From Phycisphaeraceae bacterium (lineage in GTDB: Bacteria; Planctomycetota; Phycisphaerae; Phycisphaerales; Phycisphaeraceae): 56,591 nucleotides of DNA. The notes below the pieces were generated by a model that was not told the DNA's origin, did not search any database, and worked only from the letters and a program-made list of their open reading frames with translations. The stretch is taken from positions 1-56,591 of the forward strand of contig JAJDCU010000027.1 of NCBI GenBank assembly GCA_029260655.1, read 5' to 3'. Shown here piece by piece: positions 3,389 through 51,726 of this stretch; positions within the stretch are counted from its first letter, which is position 1, and every line of letters begins with the position of its first letter. A program made the translations under genes and the position numbers.

Positions 3389-5533
3389 ATGACGACCGCG
3401 ACAGCAACCAAGGACGGCAAGACCGACAGGCTCGCCTTCACACGCAACTTCGGGATCTGCGCCCACATCGACGCCGGCAAGACCACCGTCACCGAGCGCA
3501 TCCTCTACTACACCGGCAAGAGCTACAAGATCGGTGAGGTCCACGAGGGCACCGCCACCATGGACTTCCTCGAAGACGAGCAGCAGCGCGGCATCACCAT
3601 CCAGTCCGCCGCCACCACCTGCCCGTGGACCCACGCCGGCAAAGACTACACCCTGAACCTGATCGACACCCCAGGCCACGTCGACTTCACCATGGAGGTC
3701 GAGCGCTCGATGCGTGTGCTCGACGGGGCCGTGGTCGTGTTCGACGGCAAGGAAGGCGTCGAGGCCCAGTCCGAAACCGTCTGGCGTCAGGCCGACCGCT
3801 ACGAAGTCCCCCGCCTGTGTTTCATCAACAAGATGGATAAGCTCGGCGCCGACTTCGAGTACAGCTTCAAGACCGTCAAGGACCGCCTGGGCGCTCCGGC
3901 CATCGCCGTGCAGATCCCCATCGGCGCGGGCAACGAGTTCGAGGGCGTCATCGACCTGTTGACCATGAAGGCCTACTACTTCTCCAAGGAAGACATGGGC
4001 TCGAAGGTCGAGGAAAGGGACATCCCCGACGACTACAAGGAGATGGCGGAGCTTTGGCATCACGCCCTGGTCGAGCGCGCCGCCGAGCTGGACGACGACC
4101 TGACCGAGAAGTTTCTTAACGACGACGACCTGACCCCCGACGAGATCCGTGCCGCTCTGCGAAAGGGCACGATCGATCGGCGGGTCCACCCGACCTACTG
4201 CGGCGCGGCGCTTCAGAACATCGGCGTGCAACGTCTGATCGACGGCGTCATCGACTACCTGCCCAACCCCACCGAGGTCCCCGAGGTCCAGGGCACCGAC
4301 GTCAAGGACGCGACCAAGAAAATCACACGCCCGCACAGCGAGGACGCCCCGTTCTCCGGGCTGGTCTTCAAGATCGTCAACGACGCCCACGGCGACCTGA
4401 CCTACGTACGGATCTACTCCGGCATCCTCGAAAAGGGCACACGGGTGCTCAACTCCAACAACGGCCGACGCGAGATCATCAGCCGGATCTTCGAGATGCA
4501 CGCCAAGGACCGCCAGGCACGCGACAACGCCAAGGCCGGTGAGATCGTCGCCATCGTCGGATTGAAGAACTCGATCACCGGCGAAACACTCTGTGCACAA
4601 GACAAACCGATCGTCCTGGAGCGCATGGACTTCCCCGACCCCGTCATCTCCATGAGCATCGAGCCTGCCACCAGCGCCGACAAGGAAAAACTCGGCAACG
4701 CGCTGGTCACCATCCGCCGGGAGGACCCCAGCTTCCAGAGCCACTACGACGATGAGACCGGTCAAACCATCATCGCCGGCATGGGCGAGTTGCACCTGGA
4801 CATCATCAAGACCAAGCTGGTCCGCGACATGAAGGTCGGCGTTAACGTCGGCACGCCTCGCGTCGCCTACAAAGAGTCGATCAGCAAATCCGCAGAAGCC
4901 CGCGGGATCCACAAGAAGCAGACCGGCGGCCGCGGCCAGTTCGCCGACTGTACGATCAGCGTCGAACCGATCACCGCCGAGCAGGCAGCTGAGCAGGAGC
5001 TGGATTACAAGGACGGCGTCGCGTTCGAGAACAAGATCGCCGGCGGTGCGATCCCCAAGGAGTACATCCCCTCGGTCGGCGCAGGTGCCCGATCGACCGC
5101 CAAGAGCGGCGTCCTCGCGGGCTACCCCCTGCTTGGCGTCAAGGTCACCCTCCTGGACGGCAAGTTCCACGACGTCGACTCCTCCCAGATCGCCTTCGAG
5201 CAGGCCGGCACACTGGCCTTTAAGGAAGCGACCCGAAAGGCCGGCCTGGAACTGCTTGAGCCGATCATGAAGGTCGTCATCACCACACCCGACGAGTTCC
5301 TGGGCAACGTCACCGGCGACCTGAACCGGCGACGCGCCATCATCAACGAGACCGAACAGCGCGGCGTCACCCGCGTCGTCACCGCCGAGGCCCCGCTCTC
5401 CGAGATGTTCGGCTACTCCAACACCCTTCGCGGCATGAGCCAGGGCCGAGCCAGCTACGCCATGGAACCCTTCACCTACCGCCCCGTCCCCGGCAACATC
5501 GCCAAGGAAATCCTCGAGGGCGCGCAGAAGTAA
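3389..5533 (+). CDS. fusA: Translation elongation factor G
   Basis: At 714 residues this is a full-length EF-G, the GTPase that moves tRNAs and mRNA through the ribosome. The GTP-binding motifs are all present: AHIDAGKTT (about 25-33), DTPGH, and NKMD. The switch I region ([11 protein letters not shown]) and the domain IV tip region (GGRGQFAD...) are intact. The ATG at 3389 follows AGAAGG with suitable spacing. The gene stands alone: rpsL, rpsG and tuf are not beside it, and rpoBC lies 21 kb away on the other strand. A strong terminator follows at 5602-5630, so it is probably a single-gene transcript. Confidence 0.97.
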
Positions 5534-5601
5534 GACCGCAAGCCCTCGGCCTCCGGGCCGTAGGACTTCAATATAGTTTCACAACTCAAAATTTCTCAAA
5601 A

Positions 5602-5630
5602 CCCCGCGGATCCTTCCGCGGGGTTTTTTT
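5602..5630 (+). terminator. Rho-independent terminator after fusA
   Basis: A 9-bp stem (CCCCGCGGA / TCCGCGGGG) with loop TCCT is followed by seven T. It sits 68 bases after the fusA stop codon. Confidence 0.92.
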
Positions 5631-5678
5631 ACGTATACTTTGCGAAGTTCACCCTGCCGAATGAATAAAGGAAGCATC

Positions 5679-6458
5679 ATGAGTCAGATACAATGGCTGA
5701 GCGTGTTCGTGTTATTGTTTGCCGTAAGTCATAGCACGGCCGAAGTCACAACCGAGCCCGTCCCCTACACGCACGACGGCGTCCAACTGCAAGGCTATCT
5801 CGCGATCCCCGATGGGGAAGTGCGTGGCGCGGTGCTGGTGGTGCATGAGTGGTGGGGGCACAACGAGTATGCGCAGATGCGGGCGCGGATGTTGGCGGAG
5901 CTTGGGTACGTTGCGTTCGCGGTGGACATGTACGGCAAGGGGAAGGTGACGGACAGCCCCGAGCAGGCCGGGCAGTGGGCCGGCGAGGTAACCAGTGATC
6001 GGGCGCTGTACCGGGCGCGGGCGACTGCGGGGCTTGAAGCGTTTAAAGCAACCGAGCATGTGACGGATGGCATGAAGATCGCGGCGATCGGGTACTGCTT
6101 CGGCGGGACCACCGTCACCGAACTCGCCTACTCGGGCGCGGACCTGGTCGGGGTCGTCGCGTTCCACGGCAACCCCAAGCCCCCCCTACCCGATGATCAG
6201 ATCACGGCTGCGATCCTGTTCTGCCACGGCGGGGCCGACCCGCTGGTACCGGACGACGCGATCAAGGCCGCGACCGCCGGGCTGGACGCAAAAAACGTGG
6301 ACTGGCAGTTGATCCGCTACGCCGGAGCCAAGCACGCATTCAGCAACCCCAAGGCCGACACCTACGGCCTGCCCCCGGTCGGTTACGACGAAAAGGCCGA
6401 CAAGCGATCATGGGCGCATATGCGGGTGTTCTTCGATGAAATCTTTACGGGCCCGTAA
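5679..6458 (+). CDS. Exported dienelactone hydrolase family protein
   Basis: From ATG 5679 the protein has 259 residues, with a signal peptide of about 21 (ending HSTA). It has an alpha/beta hydrolase fold with the dienelactone hydrolase triad: Cys140 in GYCFGG, Asp187 in GGADPLV and His219 in KHAF. A HEWWG motif (about 56-60) is typical of the family. Members hydrolyse lactones or esters; the substrate is unknown, and export suggests an extracytoplasmic compound. The start is chosen because AAGGA lies about 7 bases upstream and a signal peptide follows directly; an in-frame start at 5640 would bury it. A small membrane methyltransferase follows 4 bases later. Confidence 0.85.
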   Translation: MSQIQWLSVFVLLFAVSHSTAEVTTEPVPYTHDGVQLQGYLAIPDGEVRGAVLVVHEWWGHNEYAQMRARMLAELGYVAFAVDMYGKGKVTDSPEQAGQWAGEVTSDRALYRARATAGLEAFKATEHVTDGMKIAAIGYCFGGTTVTELAYSGADLVGVVAFHGNPKPPLPDDQITAAILFCHGGADPLVPDDAIKAATAGLDAKNVDWQLIRYAGAKHAFSNPKADTYGLPPVGYDEKADKRSWAHMRVFFDEIFTGP

Positions 6459-43696: not shown

Positions 43697-43750
43697 CAGG
43701 TTACAGACGGCAAAGGCATGGCCGGCATTCAAGCCGGCGGGACTAAGACG

Positions 43751-46339
43751 ATGCACACATACCAATACCAACCCGGCGACACGCCCCTGGAGGGCTACAC
43801 GATCAAGAGCGCCGCGGGCCACGGCGGGTTCGGCGAGGTGTATTACGCCGTCAGCGACGCCGGGCGGGAGGTCGCGCTCAAGGCGGTTCAGGGCTACGAA
43901 CAGATCGAGCTGCGCGGCATCAGCCAGTGCATGAACCTCAAGAACCCGCACCTGGTCACCATCTTCGACGTCAAGCACAACGACAAGAACCAGCCCTTCG
44001 TGTTGATGGAATACGTCGCGGGTCCGTCGCTCGCCGATCTGATTGATGAGTCGCCCGGCGGTCTGGGCGCGCAGAAGACCGCGTTCTTCCTCCGCGAAAT
44101 CGCCAAGGGGCTTTCCTACCTGCACGATCACGGCATCGTCCACCGCGACCTTAAGCCAGCGAATATCTTCTACGAAAACGGCTACGTCAAGATCGGAGAC
44201 TACGGCCTGAGCAAGGCCATCAACGCCGACCACCATCAGAGCCAGACCGTCACCGTAGGGACCGTCCACTACATGGCCCCCGAGGTCGGCGCCGGGAAGT
44301 ACGACCGCAGCATCGACATCTACGCGATGGGCGTGGTCGTTTACGAGATGCTCACCGGCAAGGTCCCGTTCCAGGGCGATACCCCAAGCGAAATCCTGAT
44401 GAAGCACCTGTCGGCCAAGCCCGACCTCGACGAAATCGAAGAGCCTTTCCGGGAAGCGATTCACAAGGCGATGGACAAGGACCCCACGAAGCGCTACCAG
44501 AGCGTCAACGAGATGGTCCAGACGGTCTTCGGCGAAGCGCGTATGAAACAGAGCATGGCCAGCTACTCGGCGGCTGACCTGAGCATGGCCGCGGCGCATG
44601 TCGGCAGGAAGGTCCGCGTCGGCGGCGCGGGCGCTGCCAGCTCTGGCGCGGATATCGCGGGGTACGGGCAAGCCACCAGCCCCGCGCACGCCGGCCCGCC
44701 CCCTGAGAAAAGCACGATGTACCAGGCGGGTAGGGCCTACGGCCGGGCGTTCCATGATCGGGGGCGCAGGGTGCCAAGTCTTGCCGACCCGCTGCGCGAC
44801 CCGATGCGCCCGGGGCAGCGGCGCACACTTTCAGCGATCGCATTGGGGGTGGTCGCACTAGGCGCCGGTCTCCTGGCCGGGGCCGGTGCTCAGCAGGAAC
44901 AGATGTTCATGCTGTTCGCCTTCACCGCGTCGCTGGGTGCGGTATTCGGGCTTTCGATCGCACGCAGACGATTGCTGCCGACGCTCGAGGATGAACCGAT
45001 GCTTGCTCGGCGTGTGACTGTCGGCGGGATGGCGATCTTCGTCTCGGGGCTGTTGGCGTTTCTGGGTACGTCATCGTTCATCGGGGGTTGGGATGCGCCC
45101 CAGACCATGACCATCCTGACCCTCGCCGGCCCGTTGTTGCTCATGGACTGGATCAAGGCGATGTCACCCGGCCGGTCGCAACGTCTATCGTTCGGCTCGG
45201 CGTTCAGCGCAGGGCTGCTGGGCTGGATCGCGTCATGGTTCTTCAGCGACATGAGCTCGCTGCTTGCGATCGGTATCCCCGCCGCGGTCATGCTCGGCAC
45301 ACAGGCGCTCAGCCCGTTCGACCCGACCGTCACCGAGGACTGGGCTGTTGATGACGACGATGTAGATCCCGGGTCCGCGCACTGGACACCGGCAGATGCT
45401 GATCTACGCCGTGGGGACGATCACGGACGCAGAAAACACAAGGCGGCTCACGCGACCGAGCAGGTCAACGCCTACTCCGCCGTGATCACCAGCAACACAT
45501 CTTCCAAGAGCCGACTGATCGCGCTGCTGTTGTCGCTTGTCCCATTCGTGACGGGGACCCCGATCTTTGGTTTGCACCGGTTCTATGCCGGCAAGATCGG
45601 CACAGGGATCCTCTGGCTCCTGACTTTCGGGTTGTTTGGGATCGGTCAACTGATCGACATCATTATGATCGCCTGCGGCACGTTCAAGGACGCCGCCGGC
45701 AAGCCCATAGCCGTTTGGCAGCCGGGTCACCACGGCAGCATTAATCCTTTGCACGCGCACAAGCGTGCGCCCCAGCCGCCGCATGCACCGCTGTTTCCCA
45801 GTTTCATCAGCGTCGTGCTCTCACTGATCGCGTCGCTGATGATGCTAGTCGGATTGACGATCGGCCTGGGCCTGGTACTGCAACTGCCCGAGGCGGTCGC
45901 AGCCGATATGCTTGCCCCGGGACTCAGTACAAACATGAATAAGTTGTTTGGGTACGACGGTTGGCCGGGCCTGATGCAGGGCGCCGGGCTCCCGCTGTCC
46001 TTTGGGTTGCTAGGCCTCGGCGGTGTCCTGTTGACCGCCGCCAGAAGACTCGAGGGCGTGCCCCACATGCTCCGCGCGATATCCGGCGCCGGTGGATTGA
46101 TGCTGGCGATGGGCATCGGGACCGGTTTGATGAACAACAACCACCACGTCTGGGAAATAGTCGCGCCCGAGATCCGGGCCGACCGGATCGGCCCGGCCGT
46201 GGAATTGTTCTTAAACAGCACCGACCAGGCGGCGGGTGTGTTTGCCCTCGTCTTCCTGGCCGCATCGGTCCTGATCCTGGCCTGGCCACCGAAACCACAG
46301 AGGGTCACCGTCGGACAATCAGCCGAGGAAGGAGCGTAA
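43751..46339 (+). CDS. Ser/Thr protein kinase with multiple membrane helices and a TM2 domain
   Basis: The 862-residue protein (from ATG 43751; ATG 43718 adds 11 residues) has an N-terminal Hanks-type kinase. It carries the Gly-rich GHGGFGEVY, Lys44 in VALK, HRDLKPAN (131-138), DYG at 150-152 in place of DFG, and a GTVHYMAPE activation segment. A linker of about 110 residues leads to five or more helices (from about 370), then a TM2 domain (LIALLLSLVP...GLHRFYAGKIGTGILW...) and more helices to the end. The kinase faces the cytoplasm, with helices as sensor or partner surface. It ends 3 bases before the next gene. Confidence 0.92.
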   Translation: MHTYQYQPGDTPLEGYTIKSAAGHGGFGEVYYAVSDAGREVALKAVQGYEQIELRGISQCMNLKNPHLVTIFDVKHNDKNQPFVLMEYVAGPSLADLIDESPGGLGAQKTAFFLREIAKGLSYLHDHGIVHRDLKPANIFYENGYVKIGDYGLSKAINADHHQSQTVTVGTVHYMAPEVGAGKYDRSIDIYAMGVVVYEMLTGKVPFQGDTPSEILMKHLSAKPDLDEIEEPFREAIHKAMDKDPTKRYQSVNEMVQTVFGEARMKQSMASYSAADLSMAAAHVGRKVRVGGAGAASSGADIAGYGQATSPAHAGPPPEKSTMYQAGRAYGRAFHDRGRRVPSLADPLRDPMRPGQRRTLSAIALGVVALGAGLLAGAGAQQEQMFMLFAFTASLGAVFGLSIARRRLLPTLEDEPMLARRVTVGGMAIFVSGLLAFLGTSSFIGGWDAPQTMTILTLAGPLLLMDWIKAMSPGRSQRLSFGSAFSAGLLGWIASWFFSDMSSLLAIGIPAAVMLGTQALSPFDPTVTEDWAVDDDDVDPGSAHWTPADADLRRGDDHGRRKHKAAHATEQVNAYSAVITSNTSSKSRLIALLLSLVPFVTGTPIFGLHRFYAGKIGTGILWLLTFGLFGIGQLIDIIMIACGTFKDAAGKPIAVWQPGHHGSINPLHAHKRAPQPPHAPLFPSFISVVLSLIASLMMLVGLTIGLGLVLQLPEAVAADMLAPGLSTNMNKLFGYDGWPGLMQGAGLPLSFGLLGLGGVLLTAARRLEGVPHMLRAISGAGGLMLAMGIGTGLMNNNHHVWEIVAPEIRADRIGPAVELFLNSTDQAAGVFALVFLAASVLILAWPPKPQRVTVGQSAEEGA

Positions 46340-46342
46340 GCG

Positions 46343-47752
46343 ATGACATATAGCGTTGGTATTTTGGGCTTATTACTTCTCCTGGCTCTTGGCCTGGGCG
46401 GGTTGCTCTTCGTCGCTGTGTTGATCGCGATCATCGTCAAGGCGTTGAGCAAGAGCCGAAGTGCGGGCCATGTGTTTGCCGGGGGGTTTGCGGCGGTTTT
46501 GGCATTATTGATAGTCGGCTCGGTTGTGGGCCTGTTTATAGGTATGTTCTCCGTACAAAGAAAAGCTGTTGTCTCTCACACACCGTCCTATACAAATGAT
46601 AGAGCCGTGGTCGATCTGATGATCGCGGAGAACGGTCAGGCAAGTGTGCCGGCCAACCAGTCCCAAGACGTCACCGGATTGGTGAGCGTGCCCCCACAGC
46701 AAGCACAGCAGAGCACCGGCATCACGGTCGCGGGCACCCCGTGGACCAACGCGGTCGAGGAGTTTCAAGACTTCGAGGCGGACGTTTATCCGTCGCTTGA
46801 GTCCGCGGCCGAGGCACTGGGAAGGCGTGTCGGTGCGCGGCTGAAGAAATCGTCCGACACGGGTGATGGCGATAAACAATCCATCTATGTCTGGCATGAC
46901 ACCGAGAGCCAGACATTTTCATCGCCAAGAGGCGAACCGGTCATCTCACGCGACATACTCGATGCGGTGGCTGCTGGGTTGAGGCAGAAGCTCGACGATC
47001 CAGCGTATGTCTCAGTCGAAAGGCCCGTATCCGGGATAGTGGTGCGTGTGGCGATTCAGGAAATTGACTTCGATCATCGCAGCAACCGCTGGGGGCGACA
47101 TGCCCTGTCAAGCTCAGGCGGGCTTGCGCTACGGGTCGAAGCGCCGGGCGGGCCGTTCTCGGTCTCCACGCGCTTCGTGGATGCGCCCTGGGTTGAGGAC
47201 CGCAACATCTTTGGCCCTGAATACGCTGGCGATTGGCTGGTCGCCTACTCCGGTGGCGCACATACCACGCACGATGGGGCCAAGCAGGATGCGCTTGCCG
47301 CTGCCAGCGAATCCCTGCTGCCTCTGGCACGGGCGAGGATCCAGAAGCTCCCCGCATCTGATCAACACAACTTCATCCGGCAGATACAGAAGAACCCCGA
47401 CTGGTTGCGTGACCGTATCTCTGCCGAACTGGTCTCGGGTAATCAGATGATGCACCGGTTTGCGCAGCGTTATGATCGGCCGTACGGCGCGACGATCTGG
47501 CGAGAAGCGATCCTGGTCGATGCTTCGTCCGTAAAGGTCGAGACCATAGCCCGCTCTCTGATACAAGGTGTTGAATCGCGCGTTGCGCACACCCGGACAA
47601 CCTTCCTCTCCTTCGTGGGCCTAGGTGTGCTGGTGTTCGGGACATACCTGTTTCTGAATATGGCAACGAAGGGGTATTATGTCTGGGCCCTGCGCTTCGC
47701 CGCCGTCGGAGGGCTGGCCGTTGCGGGTTTCGTGGTGACGCATCTACTGTAA
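46343..47752 (+). CDS. Large membrane protein of the signalling locus, unknown
   Basis: The 469-residue protein has two N-terminal helices (about 8-33 and 46-68), a soluble domain of about 320 residues (probably extracytoplasmic), and two C-terminal helices (about 423-441 and 450-466). The soluble region includes ESQTFSSPRGEPVISRDIL, VRVAIQEIDFDHRSNRWG and VDAPWVEDRNIFGPEYAGDWLVAYSGG. No known domain is recognised. AAGGAG precedes ATG 46343, and the kinase stop is 3 bases upstream. A topology with a domain outside the cytoplasmic membrane suits a sensor, but that is inference. Confidence 0.72.
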   Translation: MTYSVGILGLLLLLALGLGGLLFVAVLIAIIVKALSKSRSAGHVFAGGFAAVLALLIVGSVVGLFIGMFSVQRKAVVSHTPSYTNDRAVVDLMIAENGQASVPANQSQDVTGLVSVPPQQAQQSTGITVAGTPWTNAVEEFQDFEADVYPSLESAAEALGRRVGARLKKSSDTGDGDKQSIYVWHDTESQTFSSPRGEPVISRDILDAVAAGLRQKLDDPAYVSVERPVSGIVVRVAIQEIDFDHRSNRWGRHALSSSGGLALRVEAPGGPFSVSTRFVDAPWVEDRNIFGPEYAGDWLVAYSGGAHTTHDGAKQDALAAASESLLPLARARIQKLPASDQHNFIRQIQKNPDWLRDRISAELVSGNQMMHRFAQRYDRPYGATIWREAILVDASSVKVETIARSLIQGVESRVAHTRTTFLSFVGLGVLVFGTYLFLNMATKGYYVWALRFAAVGGLAVAGFVVTHLL

Positions 47753-47776: not shown

Positions 47777-48688
47777 ATGAACGGACTTTCAGAGGCCGAA
47801 CGATTCCTGCTCGACGCGGTGCGTCGGGGGGATGAACAGGGCTGGCCGCAACTGGTGGACCGCTACCAGGGGCGGTTGCTGGCGTTTGCGCGCAGCCGGG
47901 TCCGTAGCGCTACCGATGCCGAGGACCTCGTGCAGGAGACGTTCATCGGGCTGCTGCGAGGGCTCGAAAGGTTCCGAGGCGATTCGAGCCTGGAGACGTA
48001 CCTCTTCTCGATCCTGCGTCGGCGGATCATCGATTCGCACCGCGGCAAGGCCCGGGCCGTGTGCCTCTTAAACGACATCACAGGAAGCGGTGGCGGCGGC
48101 GATGACAGCGACCCCGGGCCCGAATCACGCCTGCCCGCGCCCGACCCGACCGCGAGCTGGTACGCCAGGCGCGATGAACAGCACGACGCGTACCGGAGCG
48201 TACTGGCGATGGCGGTCGGCGAGCTGGTACGGGGCTACAAAACATCCTTGAATTTCCGGGAGCTGAAGATCATCGAGCTGCTGTTTTACGCCCAGCTAAA
48301 GAACGCCCAGGTCGCCCAGGCGGTCGGTGTCGAAGACGGCCACGTCGCGACGGTCAAGCACCGCAGCCTCGCACGCATCCGAAAACATCTGCTGGACCAC
48401 GCCGAGGGCCTTTCGCAATCCCACATCGACCCGCCGGACGCGCTGCTGACCGAGGTCTGGGAAGGCCACCGCCTAAGCTGTCCAAAGCGCAGCACCATCG
48501 GCGGCTATCATTTGGGCACCCTCGAAGATGCCTGGACGGACTACGTCGACTTCCATCTCAACAAGCTCGGCTGCCGGTTCTGCCTGGCCAACCTACACGA
48601 CCTGCAAGCCAGCGACGACCAGGCCCAACTCGACCGGGTCCGCCAACGCATCCTGCAATCGACCGTGGGGTTTTTCAAGAAAAGCTGA
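47777..48688 (+). CDS. ECF-type sigma factor with C-terminal Cys/His-rich extension
   Basis: The 303-residue protein has a sigma-2 region (ATDAEDLVQETFIGLLRGLERFRG...LETYLFSILRRRIIDSHRG, about 44-90) and a sigma-4 helix-turn-helix (ELKIIELLFYAQLKNAQVAQAVGVEDGHVATVKHRSLARIR, about 162-202). Typical ECF factors are about 190 residues; this one has a C-terminal extension with Cys235, His245, His260, Cys266, Cys269 and His274 (GCRFCLANLHDL). The H-x5-C-x2-C layout recalls the H-x3-C-x2-C of zinc-binding anti-sigma domains. It is last in the kinase locus, so it is probably the output. Confidence 0.85.
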   Translation: MNGLSEAERFLLDAVRRGDEQGWPQLVDRYQGRLLAFARSRVRSATDAEDLVQETFIGLLRGLERFRGDSSLETYLFSILRRRIIDSHRGKARAVCLLNDITGSGGGGDDSDPGPESRLPAPDPTASWYARRDEQHDAYRSVLAMAVGELVRGYKTSLNFRELKIIELLFYAQLKNAQVAQAVGVEDGHVATVKHRSLARIRKHLLDHAEGLSQSHIDPPDALLTEVWEGHRLSCPKRSTIGGYHLGTLEDAWTDYVDFHLNKLGCRFCLANLHDLQASDDQAQLDRVRQRILQSTVGFFKKS

Positions 48689-49941: not shown

Positions 49942-50280
49942 TCAGCGAGTGCGACGCCGCCCATCTCTGTCGTCGTCGTCACCACCGCCGCCGGTGCCTC
50001 GGCTGAAGATATCACTCATGTCGGCCCCGCCCGCCAATTCCAGCCTCTCACGCCCGAGGTTCAGGCTGTAGATCAGAAGCTTGCTGGTGGTGTTGTTCAG
50101 GATGAACAGGGCCTCTTCGTTGGAGCGTGTCTTGGCGGTCATCAGCGTGAAGTTGTCCCGCGCGATGACCAGCCCGGCCTCGGCGGTGTTGGGCATCGCA
50201 GAGAGCTGGTTCAGCAGGAGCCCGGCCAGGACGAAGGCCGAAGCGATCAGGAAGTAGCAGGCGGTTTCGATGCGTTTCAT
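49942..50280 (-). CDS. Small exported/membrane protein 1, unknown
   Basis: The 112-residue protein has an N-terminal hydrophobic segment (about 5-27) and a compact beta-rich domain with AGLVIARDNFTLMTAKTRS and EEALFILNNTTSKLLIYSLNL. The tail is disordered and charged (GGGGDDDDRDGRRRTR). GGGAG lies 8 bases before ATG 50280. The next upstream gene (50328) encodes a similar build, including a segment on data or signal display (AIYIIDLNTSRVVAVMF). The two are likely paralogs in an operon. Function unknown. Confidence 0.7.
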   Translation of the reverse strand: MKRIETACYFLIASAFVLAGLLLNQLSAMPNTAEAGLVIARDNFTLMTAKTRSNEEALFILNNTTSKLLIYSLNLGRERLELAGGADMSDIFSRGTGGGGDDDDRDGRRRTR

Positions 50281-50327: not shown

Positions 50328-50621
50328 CTAGCGGTTCTGCGTGGCCCGCTCGGCATCCTCGGAGATGTTCCGGCCGGCGATGAACTCCAGCTTATTGTTC
50401 GAGCCGTTGAACATCACGGCGACGACACGGGAGGTGTTCAGATCGATGATATAGATCGCGGCCTGTGACTCGCGCCCGGTCGCGTTGCCGGCGATCATCA
50501 TGTATTGACCGCCGCCACCGAACTGCGCCTGCACCGGCGCGGGGCTCAGCGCCGCGACAACCAACGCCGCCAACAGCACCGCGTTGATCAGGATCAGGCC
50601 TGCCAGAGAACGTTTGTTCAT
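50328..50621 (-). CDS. Small exported protein 2, unknown, related to protein 1
   Basis: ATG 50621 has AGGAG 8 bases upstream, giving 97 residues. A signal peptide ends near PVQAQF. The domain has GGQYMMIAGNATGRESQAAIYIIDLNTSRVVAVMF, like the neighbour's FTLMTAKTRSNEEALFILNNTTSKLLIYSL. The longer frame open to 51233 is rejected because it would overlap plsY and has no ribosome site. Function unknown; the pair may form an exported unit. Confidence 0.72.
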   Translation of the reverse strand: MNKRSLAGLILINAVLLAALVVAALSPAPVQAQFGGGGQYMMIAGNATGRESQAAIYIIDLNTSRVVAVMFNGSNNKLEFIAGRNISEDAERATQNR

Positions 50622-50677
50622 GGTGAAACTCCTGTAACTATGAGTTGGCCCCAACCGGGCCGAAACAACAGCCCGGG

Positions 50678-50887
50678 TTAGTCCTGATGGCCTCGCTTGG
50701 CGCTGAGGAAACTGACGATGGCGATCAGCAGCATCAAAAAGAACGCGGCGACGACGGAAGCCCAGGGCTTGGCCATCGCCGATTTTGGCGGCTGGGCCTT
50801 GCTGGCGTTTTGAGCCAGCACCGGCAAGGCGGTAAGCAGCCAGGTCACAACAGCGGCAGGCAGGGGTATCCATCTCATACAAAACAT
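50678..50887 (-). CDS. Small membrane protein 3, unknown
   Basis: This 69-residue protein has a signal-like N-terminus (IPLPAAVVTWLLTALPVLAQ), a short Lys/Ala/Pro linker, and one C-terminal helix (SVVAAFFLMLLIAIVSFLSA) with a basic end (KRGHQD). AGGGG lies 7 bases before ATG 50887. It is first of three small minus-strand genes between plsY and bioB, which may form one transcript. No family is recognised. Confidence 0.6.
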   Translation of the reverse strand: MFCMRWIPLPAAVVTWLLTALPVLAQNASKAQPPKSAMAKPWASVVAAFFLMLLIAIVSFLSAKRGHQD

Positions 50888-51036
50888 GATAGGCCCCTGA
50901 CTCCGCCGTGTAAATGCTGAGATCGAGGAGGATTCCGAGGATAGCCCACGGCAAGCCGGGTTTTAGGTGCGTATGACTCGCCATGGTGGAGATCGGCAGA
51001 TACCGAGCCCTCGCCGTGGGTGATAGGATACGAGAG

Positions 51037-51726
51037 ATGAGCGACACGGCCGGATGGTTACTGTGGTTGATGGGGTCGTACCTGATCGGATCGGTGCCGT
51101 TTGGGCTGCTGATTGGTCTATCACGTGGCGTGGATATCCGCGAGGTGGGCAGCGGGAACGTGGGGGCGACCAATGCCGGGCGTGTGCTTGGCCGGGGCTG
51201 GGGCTTTTTGTGCTTCGGGTTAGATGTGTGCAAGGGGTTTGCCCCCGCGCTTGGCTACGGCTTGTGGTCGTGCCAGGCAGGGGTTCAGGCCGCATCCGGT
51301 GGTGGGCCGTGGGCGGTGCTTGGGTGGCTGACGGTGTCAGCGGCGGCCGTGTTCGGACACGTGTTCCCGGTCTGGCTGAAGTTCAAAGGCGGCAAGGGCG
51401 TGGCGACAGGCCTGGGGGTGCTGCTTGGGTTCTGGCCGGTACTGACACTGCCGGGGGTGCTAACGGGCGTGCTGTGGGTCGTGCTGGTGAAACTCACGGG
51501 GTATGTGAGCCTGGCAAGCGTCGCGGCGGCGTGCTCGCTGCCGGTGCTGGCGATCGTCAGCGGATTGTGGTGGGGACGGGGCGCCGGCGAGGTGGCGGTG
51601 TACGCCGGGGTGTCTGCGGTGCTGGCGCTGCTGATCACCGTGCGCCACCGTGGGAACCTCAGCCGCCTACGCGCGGGCACCGAGCCCAAGGCGGGGTGGG
51701 CAGAGAAAAAACCAAAAGACACCTGA
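51037..51726 (+). CDS. plsY: Glycerol-3-phosphate acyltransferase PlsY
   Basis: From ATG 51037 the protein has 229 residues and about six membrane helices. It keeps the conserved blocks GSGNVGATNAGRVLG (acyl/phosphate loop), GHVFPVWLKFKGGKGVATGLG and the C-terminal RHRGNLSRLRAGTE. It transfers acyl groups from acyl-phosphate to glycerol-3-phosphate, the first step of phospholipid synthesis. The earlier ATG at 50983 would add 18 residues without family match. Confidence 0.94.
   Translation: MSDTAGWLLWLMGSYLIGSVPFGLLIGLSRGVDIREVGSGNVGATNAGRVLGRGWGFLCFGLDVCKGFAPALGYGLWSCQAGVQAASGGGPWAVLGWLTVSAAAVFGHVFPVWLKFKGGKGVATGLGVLLGFWPVLTLPGVLTGVLWVVLVKLTGYVSLASVAAACSLPVLAIVSGLWWGRGAGEVAVYAGVSAVLALLITVRHRGNLSRLRAGTEPKAGWAEKKPKDT

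Follow-up and report, generated by a model that had tools for sequence, protein, structure and literature searches.

Probable fusion of a divergent zinc-binding anti-sigma domain to an ECF-like sigma factor in a kinase-linked locus of Planctomycetota

The ECF-like sigma factor of 303 residues encoded at 47777..48688 on the + strand of the window (that is, the whole stretch of 56,591 nucleotides from a Phycisphaeraceae bacterium that was analysed) ends in an extension which is probably a divergent class-I, CHCC-type zinc-binding anti-sigma (ZAS, zf-HC2) domain, fused to its own sigma factor and presumably relieved by a kinase. Both C-terminal ZAS fusions (ECF48, ECF52 and ECF53) and metal-binding tails (CorE) are already known; what is different here is the soluble, membrane-free domain with an x5 spacing, the fact that it is fused in some genomes and separate in others, and its association with a kinase. 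Planctomycetes possess many kinase-linked sigma factors, the mode of control of which is unproven, and the EcfP model requires the absence of the DAED motif, which is present here; an anti-sigma-like domain acting in cis, with a natural counterpart in trans, offers a concrete and easily tested alternative to that model, and the cis/trans pair represents a natural experiment on the fusion of anti-sigma factors to their targets.

In this gene product, recognised as an open reading frame and by Pfam, sigma region 2 (residues 26-93; 47852..48055, +; Pfam), with the DAED motif intact at residues 47-50, precedes region 4 (residues 157-203; 48245..48385, +), the Pfam Sigma70_r4 score of which (20.8 bits) is slightly below the cut-off of 24.1; TIGR02937 covers residues 25-205 and lies above its cut-off. 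Residues 204-303 have no Pfam match, and the extension of about 96-100 residues past region 4 agrees with the preliminary description, where some 100 extra residues had been noticed. The ZAS-like domain, delimited by conservation, AlphaFold models and structure searches, occupies residues ~220/221-303 (48437..48685, +); AlphaFold predicts helices at 221-231, 238-246, 251-264 and 267-300, and no membrane-spanning hydrophobic stretch is seen by eye in residues 204-303. On the same strand, the domain includes Trp228 (48458..48460), the four proposed zinc ligands, namely Cys235 (48479..48481), His260 (48554..48556), Cys266 (48572..48574) and Cys269 (48581..48583), two further histidines, H245 (48509-48511) and H274 (48596-48598), and the C-terminal motif S295-T296-V-G-F-F (48659..48676), a candidate sigma-binding or phosphorylation site; the protein terminates 34 residues past C269.

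Cys235, His245, His260, Cys266, Cys269 and His274, which the preliminary description had taken together as a single Cys/His cluster with an H-x5-C-x2-C stretch, are all present as described, and their conservation among homologs had been set beforehand as the test of the proposal, which it withstands at four key positions. The tail of 85 residues, used as the sole query, finds matches in 91 of 298 genomes of the class (best E 4e-34), and a tail profile in 84 of 392 genomes of the phylum. C235, H260, C266 and C269 are kept in 40 of the 41 homologs collected irrespective of the motif, the sole exception being a marginal match (E 3e-5), are present in all 40 rows of alignment A1, and are invariant, as C-x24-H-x5-C-x2-C, in 59/59 copies when fused and stand-alone forms are taken together. 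The closer alignment used for the contig scan is biased towards the motif, and the claim of conservation is not based on that set alone; L064, a marginal match, was excluded. Positions 245 and 274 vary, being mostly Leu and mostly Asp or Glu, respectively, across the homologs; the six-residue site was accordingly dropped and, as judged from the sequences, H245 and H274 are not ligands and the cluster consists of the four residues C-H-C-C. Trp228 is invariant in fused and stand-alone copies, the C-terminal [ST][ST]-x-G is strongly conserved in both architectures alike, and K237-R238 is strongly conserved among the fused forms; the named relatives all belong to the Planctomycetota (Phycisphaerae, Sedimentisphaerales, Rhodopirellula, Stieleria). 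A chance origin of the cluster within a variable tail is ruled out for practical purposes by the invariance of four residues across the phylum and in two gene architectures.

The likeness to zinc-binding anti-sigma domains, also put forward from the sequence alone, is borne out by the predicted fold, by the order and placement of the ligands, and by stand-alone relatives that exceed the zf-HC2 cut-off. The AlphaFold model of the whole protein has a pLDDT of 88 and a pTM of 0.58 and, at this pTM, does not establish a contact between tail and core; since the fold search with the whole protein was swamped by the sigma core, the tail was modelled separately (pLDDT 80). With this model Foldseek returns from the PDB, as its top two matches, ChrR (prob 0.94, 1.5 A over 50 columns) and RsiW, and RslA within the top six, with E-values which are all weak, above 1 (E 1.2); in VIA-align the top four rows are all ZAS (RslA, Z 5.8; RsiW, 5.6; ChrR, 4.1 and 3.8), the best unrelated chain having a Z of 3.3. 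The model and its best PDB matches concur on a three-helix zinc bundle and a helix after it; each structure score is modest by itself, and it is the agreement of three ZAS families that argues for the ZAS fold. In both AlphaFold models, C235 precedes one helix and H260 belongs to the helix after it, with C266 at the turn and C269 on the final helix. RsiW has the same arrangement, with C3 in L1', H30 in helix 2, C34 in L3' and C37 in helix 3 (PMC5358783), and the ligands of RsrA are C11, H37, C41 and C44 (PMC4960319). Ligand order, near-spacing and ligand-bearing predicted helices are shared with RsrA and the cytosolic domain of RsiW (both CHCC), and with ChrR and RslA (HHCC). According to the ZAS rule, a Cys or His is found 23-26 residues ahead of H-x3-C-x2-C (PMC4960319); the invariant C235-x24-H260 spacing falls within this range, but the H-to-C spacing is x5 in all copies and not the ZAS-defining x3, the tail being in this respect a divergent form. 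The tail further differs from the soluble ZAS factors in being covalently joined to the sigma factor, in having an extra Trp-containing helix ahead of the first Cys, and in that its fused form is unseen by zf-HC2: indeed, the fused tail has no match to Pfam zf-HC2 (PF13490) and no credible match to Pfam or PDB sequences even at E 10. Among ten stand-alone copies, two are above the zf-HC2 cut-off (28.4 and 23.2 bits against 22.2) and several slightly below it, and there is in addition a sub-threshold match to an NCBI anti-sigma model; the stand-alone profile matches a ZAS panel at E 5e-5, the result for the fused-tail profile (E 0.038, with a reversed control at 0.21) being only suggestive. Given the weak zf-HC2 and Foldseek scores of the fused form, the homology rests on the consistency of these results and on the stand-alone relatives, and zinc would be held by C235, H260, C266 and C269.

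The same CHCC set in RsrA serves as a redox switch, the trigger disulfide being formed by Cys11 with Cys41 or Cys44 (PMC4960319), and a redox-sensing role is common among cytosolic ZAS proteins (PMC7406223). By analogy, a C235-C266 or C235-C269 disulfide could expel the zinc and free the sigma factor, a reading compatible with the fused anti-sigma domain preferred here; it is nonetheless unlikely, because RsiW shares the CHCC site and yet is not released by oxidation (PMC5358783), and because the conserved partner of the fused loci is a kinase, with no recurrent redox gene seen next to them among the neighbours surveyed.

Fusion of an anti-sigma-like zinc domain to the C-terminus of a sigma factor is also found in ECF48, ECF52 (SCO4117) and ECF53 (PMC8999054). 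These fusions are actinobacterial, with one or two transmembrane helices, long extensions and a supposed release by proteolysis (PMC8999054); the tail described here is instead short and without a membrane helix, and a kinase lies beside its gene. A further difference is the occurrence of the domain as a separate gene. When a tail-less sigma core was searched over the same 392 phylum genomes as the domain profile, it was found in 84, of which 83 are common to the domain set, leaving one core-only and one domain-only genome; the co-occurring genomes are related by descent, so that a Fisher test on them yields no quotable probability, but the pattern covers many families. The domain-only exception (G609) has a partial, broken core at a contig start, and in the other one (G650) there is only a very weak match (E 0.004) within a frame of 1041 aa. 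The 83 shared genomes contain 84 domain copies: 30 are fused, 26 lie directly downstream of the core in a gene of their own, on the same strand and no more than about 1.1 kb away, and the other 28 are located elsewhere; the genome with two copies (G603), one fused and one separate, has exactly two matching cores. In the core tree, a single change splits the fused from the split forms (97/86 support; 96% of bootstrap trees), the tree setting no direction for this change. The preliminary description had suggested self-inhibition or partner docking, and either role, while conditional, is strengthened by the presence of a separate domain gene in nearly every sampled genome with a tail-less core; on the other hand, it is unusual for an anti-sigma factor that 28 separate copies do not lie near the sigma gene, which counts against the preferred explanation.

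The stand-alone domain ORFs, present in many genomes of the phylum, are short (about 135-170 residues), and in their products an N-terminal helix pair, resembling a zinc-free anti-sigma hairpin, precedes the CHCC domain; small proteins of this kind are encoded at L209:6627-7034 and in L211-L221, L226 and L228. At the first of these loci, the gene order is kinase, membrane protein, tail-less sigma factor (5121-5777), one further ORF and the stand-alone domain. In one family, the stand-alone proteins are encoded at a constant position next to transketolase and acetyltransferase-like genes and at a distance from their sigma factor, and a 693-aa ORF (L072:5706-7787) also bears the domain, the upstream kinase-like ORF opening with a canonical zf-HC2-like motif (HLEQCEAC).

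By analogy with the tails of other sigma factors, the domain could be an activator or a chaperone and not a brake. The tails of CorE and ECF42 are essential for activity (PMC8999054), and a positive or structural element needed for the activity or stability of the sigma factor, on which the kinase would dock, might be expected to be kept as strictly as this one is, in cis or in trans; the conserved motifs KR[SN]T and A-N-x-x-D-L could serve such docking. Even so, the best fold matches are inhibitory ZAS domains and the stand-alone form carries the anti-sigma-like hairpin, and this reading is rather improbable. The likeness to CorE/CorE2 (ECF238, former ECF44) is limited to a Cys-containing metal-binding tail within the sigma factor, the metal being predicted in our case; by literature description the Cys pattern of CorE/CorE2 is different, they are metal-responsive activators, and no kinase partner is described for them. 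The CXC motif, said to hold only for the former ECF44 (PMC8999054), is absent from the linker of the sigma factor of the window, which has a single Cys96, and the tail, with three Cys, has no Cys-rich stretch. Cys96 (48062-48064) is the lone Cys of the linker between regions 2 and 4, is kept in 64 of 79 close relatives and not in distant ones, and could pair with the tail.

No separate anti-sigma gene is present at the window locus, as had been noted before, and the genome of the window has no zf-HC2 match at E <= 1e-3; what accompanies the sigma factor is a membrane Ser/Thr protein kinase with a TM2 domain (43718..46339, +; Pkinase at residues 27-268, TM2 at 596-649), the true start of which may be a later ATG near 43751. 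Between kinase and sigma factor lies the gene of a probable membrane protein of 469 aa (46343..47752, +), without a specific family and conserved at many fused loci. A homologous kinase is found upstream on the same strand at 50 of the 54 fused loci of the named set and at 29 of the 40 of the class-wide set, the other 11 of these 40 having no adjacent kinase, and a kinase also occurs at most of the split cores examined.

A conserved adjacent kinase, with no anti-sigma gene at the locus, relates this sigma factor to the Ser/Thr kinase-linked ECF43 pair EcfP/EcfK and to the planctomycete groups ECF59, ECF61, ECF62 and ECF217, the likeness to the latter four being one of gene neighbourhood. In ECF43 the DAED motif is missing and the charge is gained by phosphorylation (PMC8999054, PMC8103513); control of the EcfP/ECF43 type would hence mean that the charge needed to bind polymerase comes from phosphorylation of region 2.2, the tail being incidental. 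The adjacent Ser/Thr kinase is a hallmark of those groups (PMC8999054), and some split relatives carry Ser at the first two motif positions, but ECF43 members are without DAED, whereas D47-A48-E49-D50 is intact in the window, with one gene between kinase and sigma factor, and nearly invariant among the fused relatives; the tail, moreover, is too highly conserved for an incidental part, which makes such control very unlikely here. As a separate observation, the tail-less cores of L209, L210, L261, L262 and L273 have Ser in the first positions (PSED, SSED, TSED, VSED), compared with mostly DAED in the fused forms.

Because an intact DAED does not fit activation by phosphorylation of the EcfP type, another brake is to be expected, and the simplest account casts the zinc domain in this role, acting in cis in the window and in trans in relatives, with the kinase relieving it. 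Most likely, one zinc on C235, H260, C266 and C269 would tie three short helices into a ZAS bundle, while the long last helix (267-300), ending in [ST][ST]-x-G, would pack, like its counterparts in the RsiW-SigW and RslA-SigL complexes, on region 2 or region 4 of the sigma factor; in complexes of the RsiW type, this is the part that touches region 2 (PMC7406223, PMC5358783). Packed in this way, the tail would deny the sigma factor access to core polymerase or promoter in the absence of a signal, and the membrane Ser/Thr kinase, the gene of which lies two genes upstream, would most likely deliver that signal by phosphorylating the tail or the sigma factor; in relatives, the same domain would act in trans as a small protein, encoded next to the sigma gene or elsewhere. 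Within this scheme, the conservation, the predicted ZAS-like fold, the exchange between cis and trans, the co-occurrence and the kinase synteny are observed, and zinc binding, inhibition by the tail and its kinase-driven release are inferred. The [ST][ST]-x-G motif with which the long helix closes is, by its sequence, a candidate phosphorylation site; T240, also considered as a target of the kinase, is weakened by the Gln, Glu or Ile found there in many stand-alone copies. That planctomycetes share a phylum-wide module of this design, with a soluble ZAS-type domain that has switched between cis and trans and through which a membrane Ser/Thr kinase would govern the sigma factor, and with a kinase-relieved auto-inhibition distinct from both EcfP-type activation and the proteolysed membrane ZAS fusions, is a generalisation that we advance tentatively, at somewhat less than even chances.

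A second form of fused sigma factor was observed in L133, L134, L136, L137, L139, L144, L146, L147, L152-L154 and L156; the kinase close to it, in most cases its direct neighbour, is more divergent (E 1e-20 to 1e-27) and has about 1,050-1,230 aa, and the two apparently form a paralogous module in Sedimentisphaerales-type genomes. Downstream of the sigma gene in the window, two ORFs on the - strand (49942-50280 and 50328-51233) seem to encode small exported proteins whose cores resemble each other (FILNNTTSKLLIYSLN and IYIIDLNTSRVVAVMFN), and are possibly a duplicated pair.
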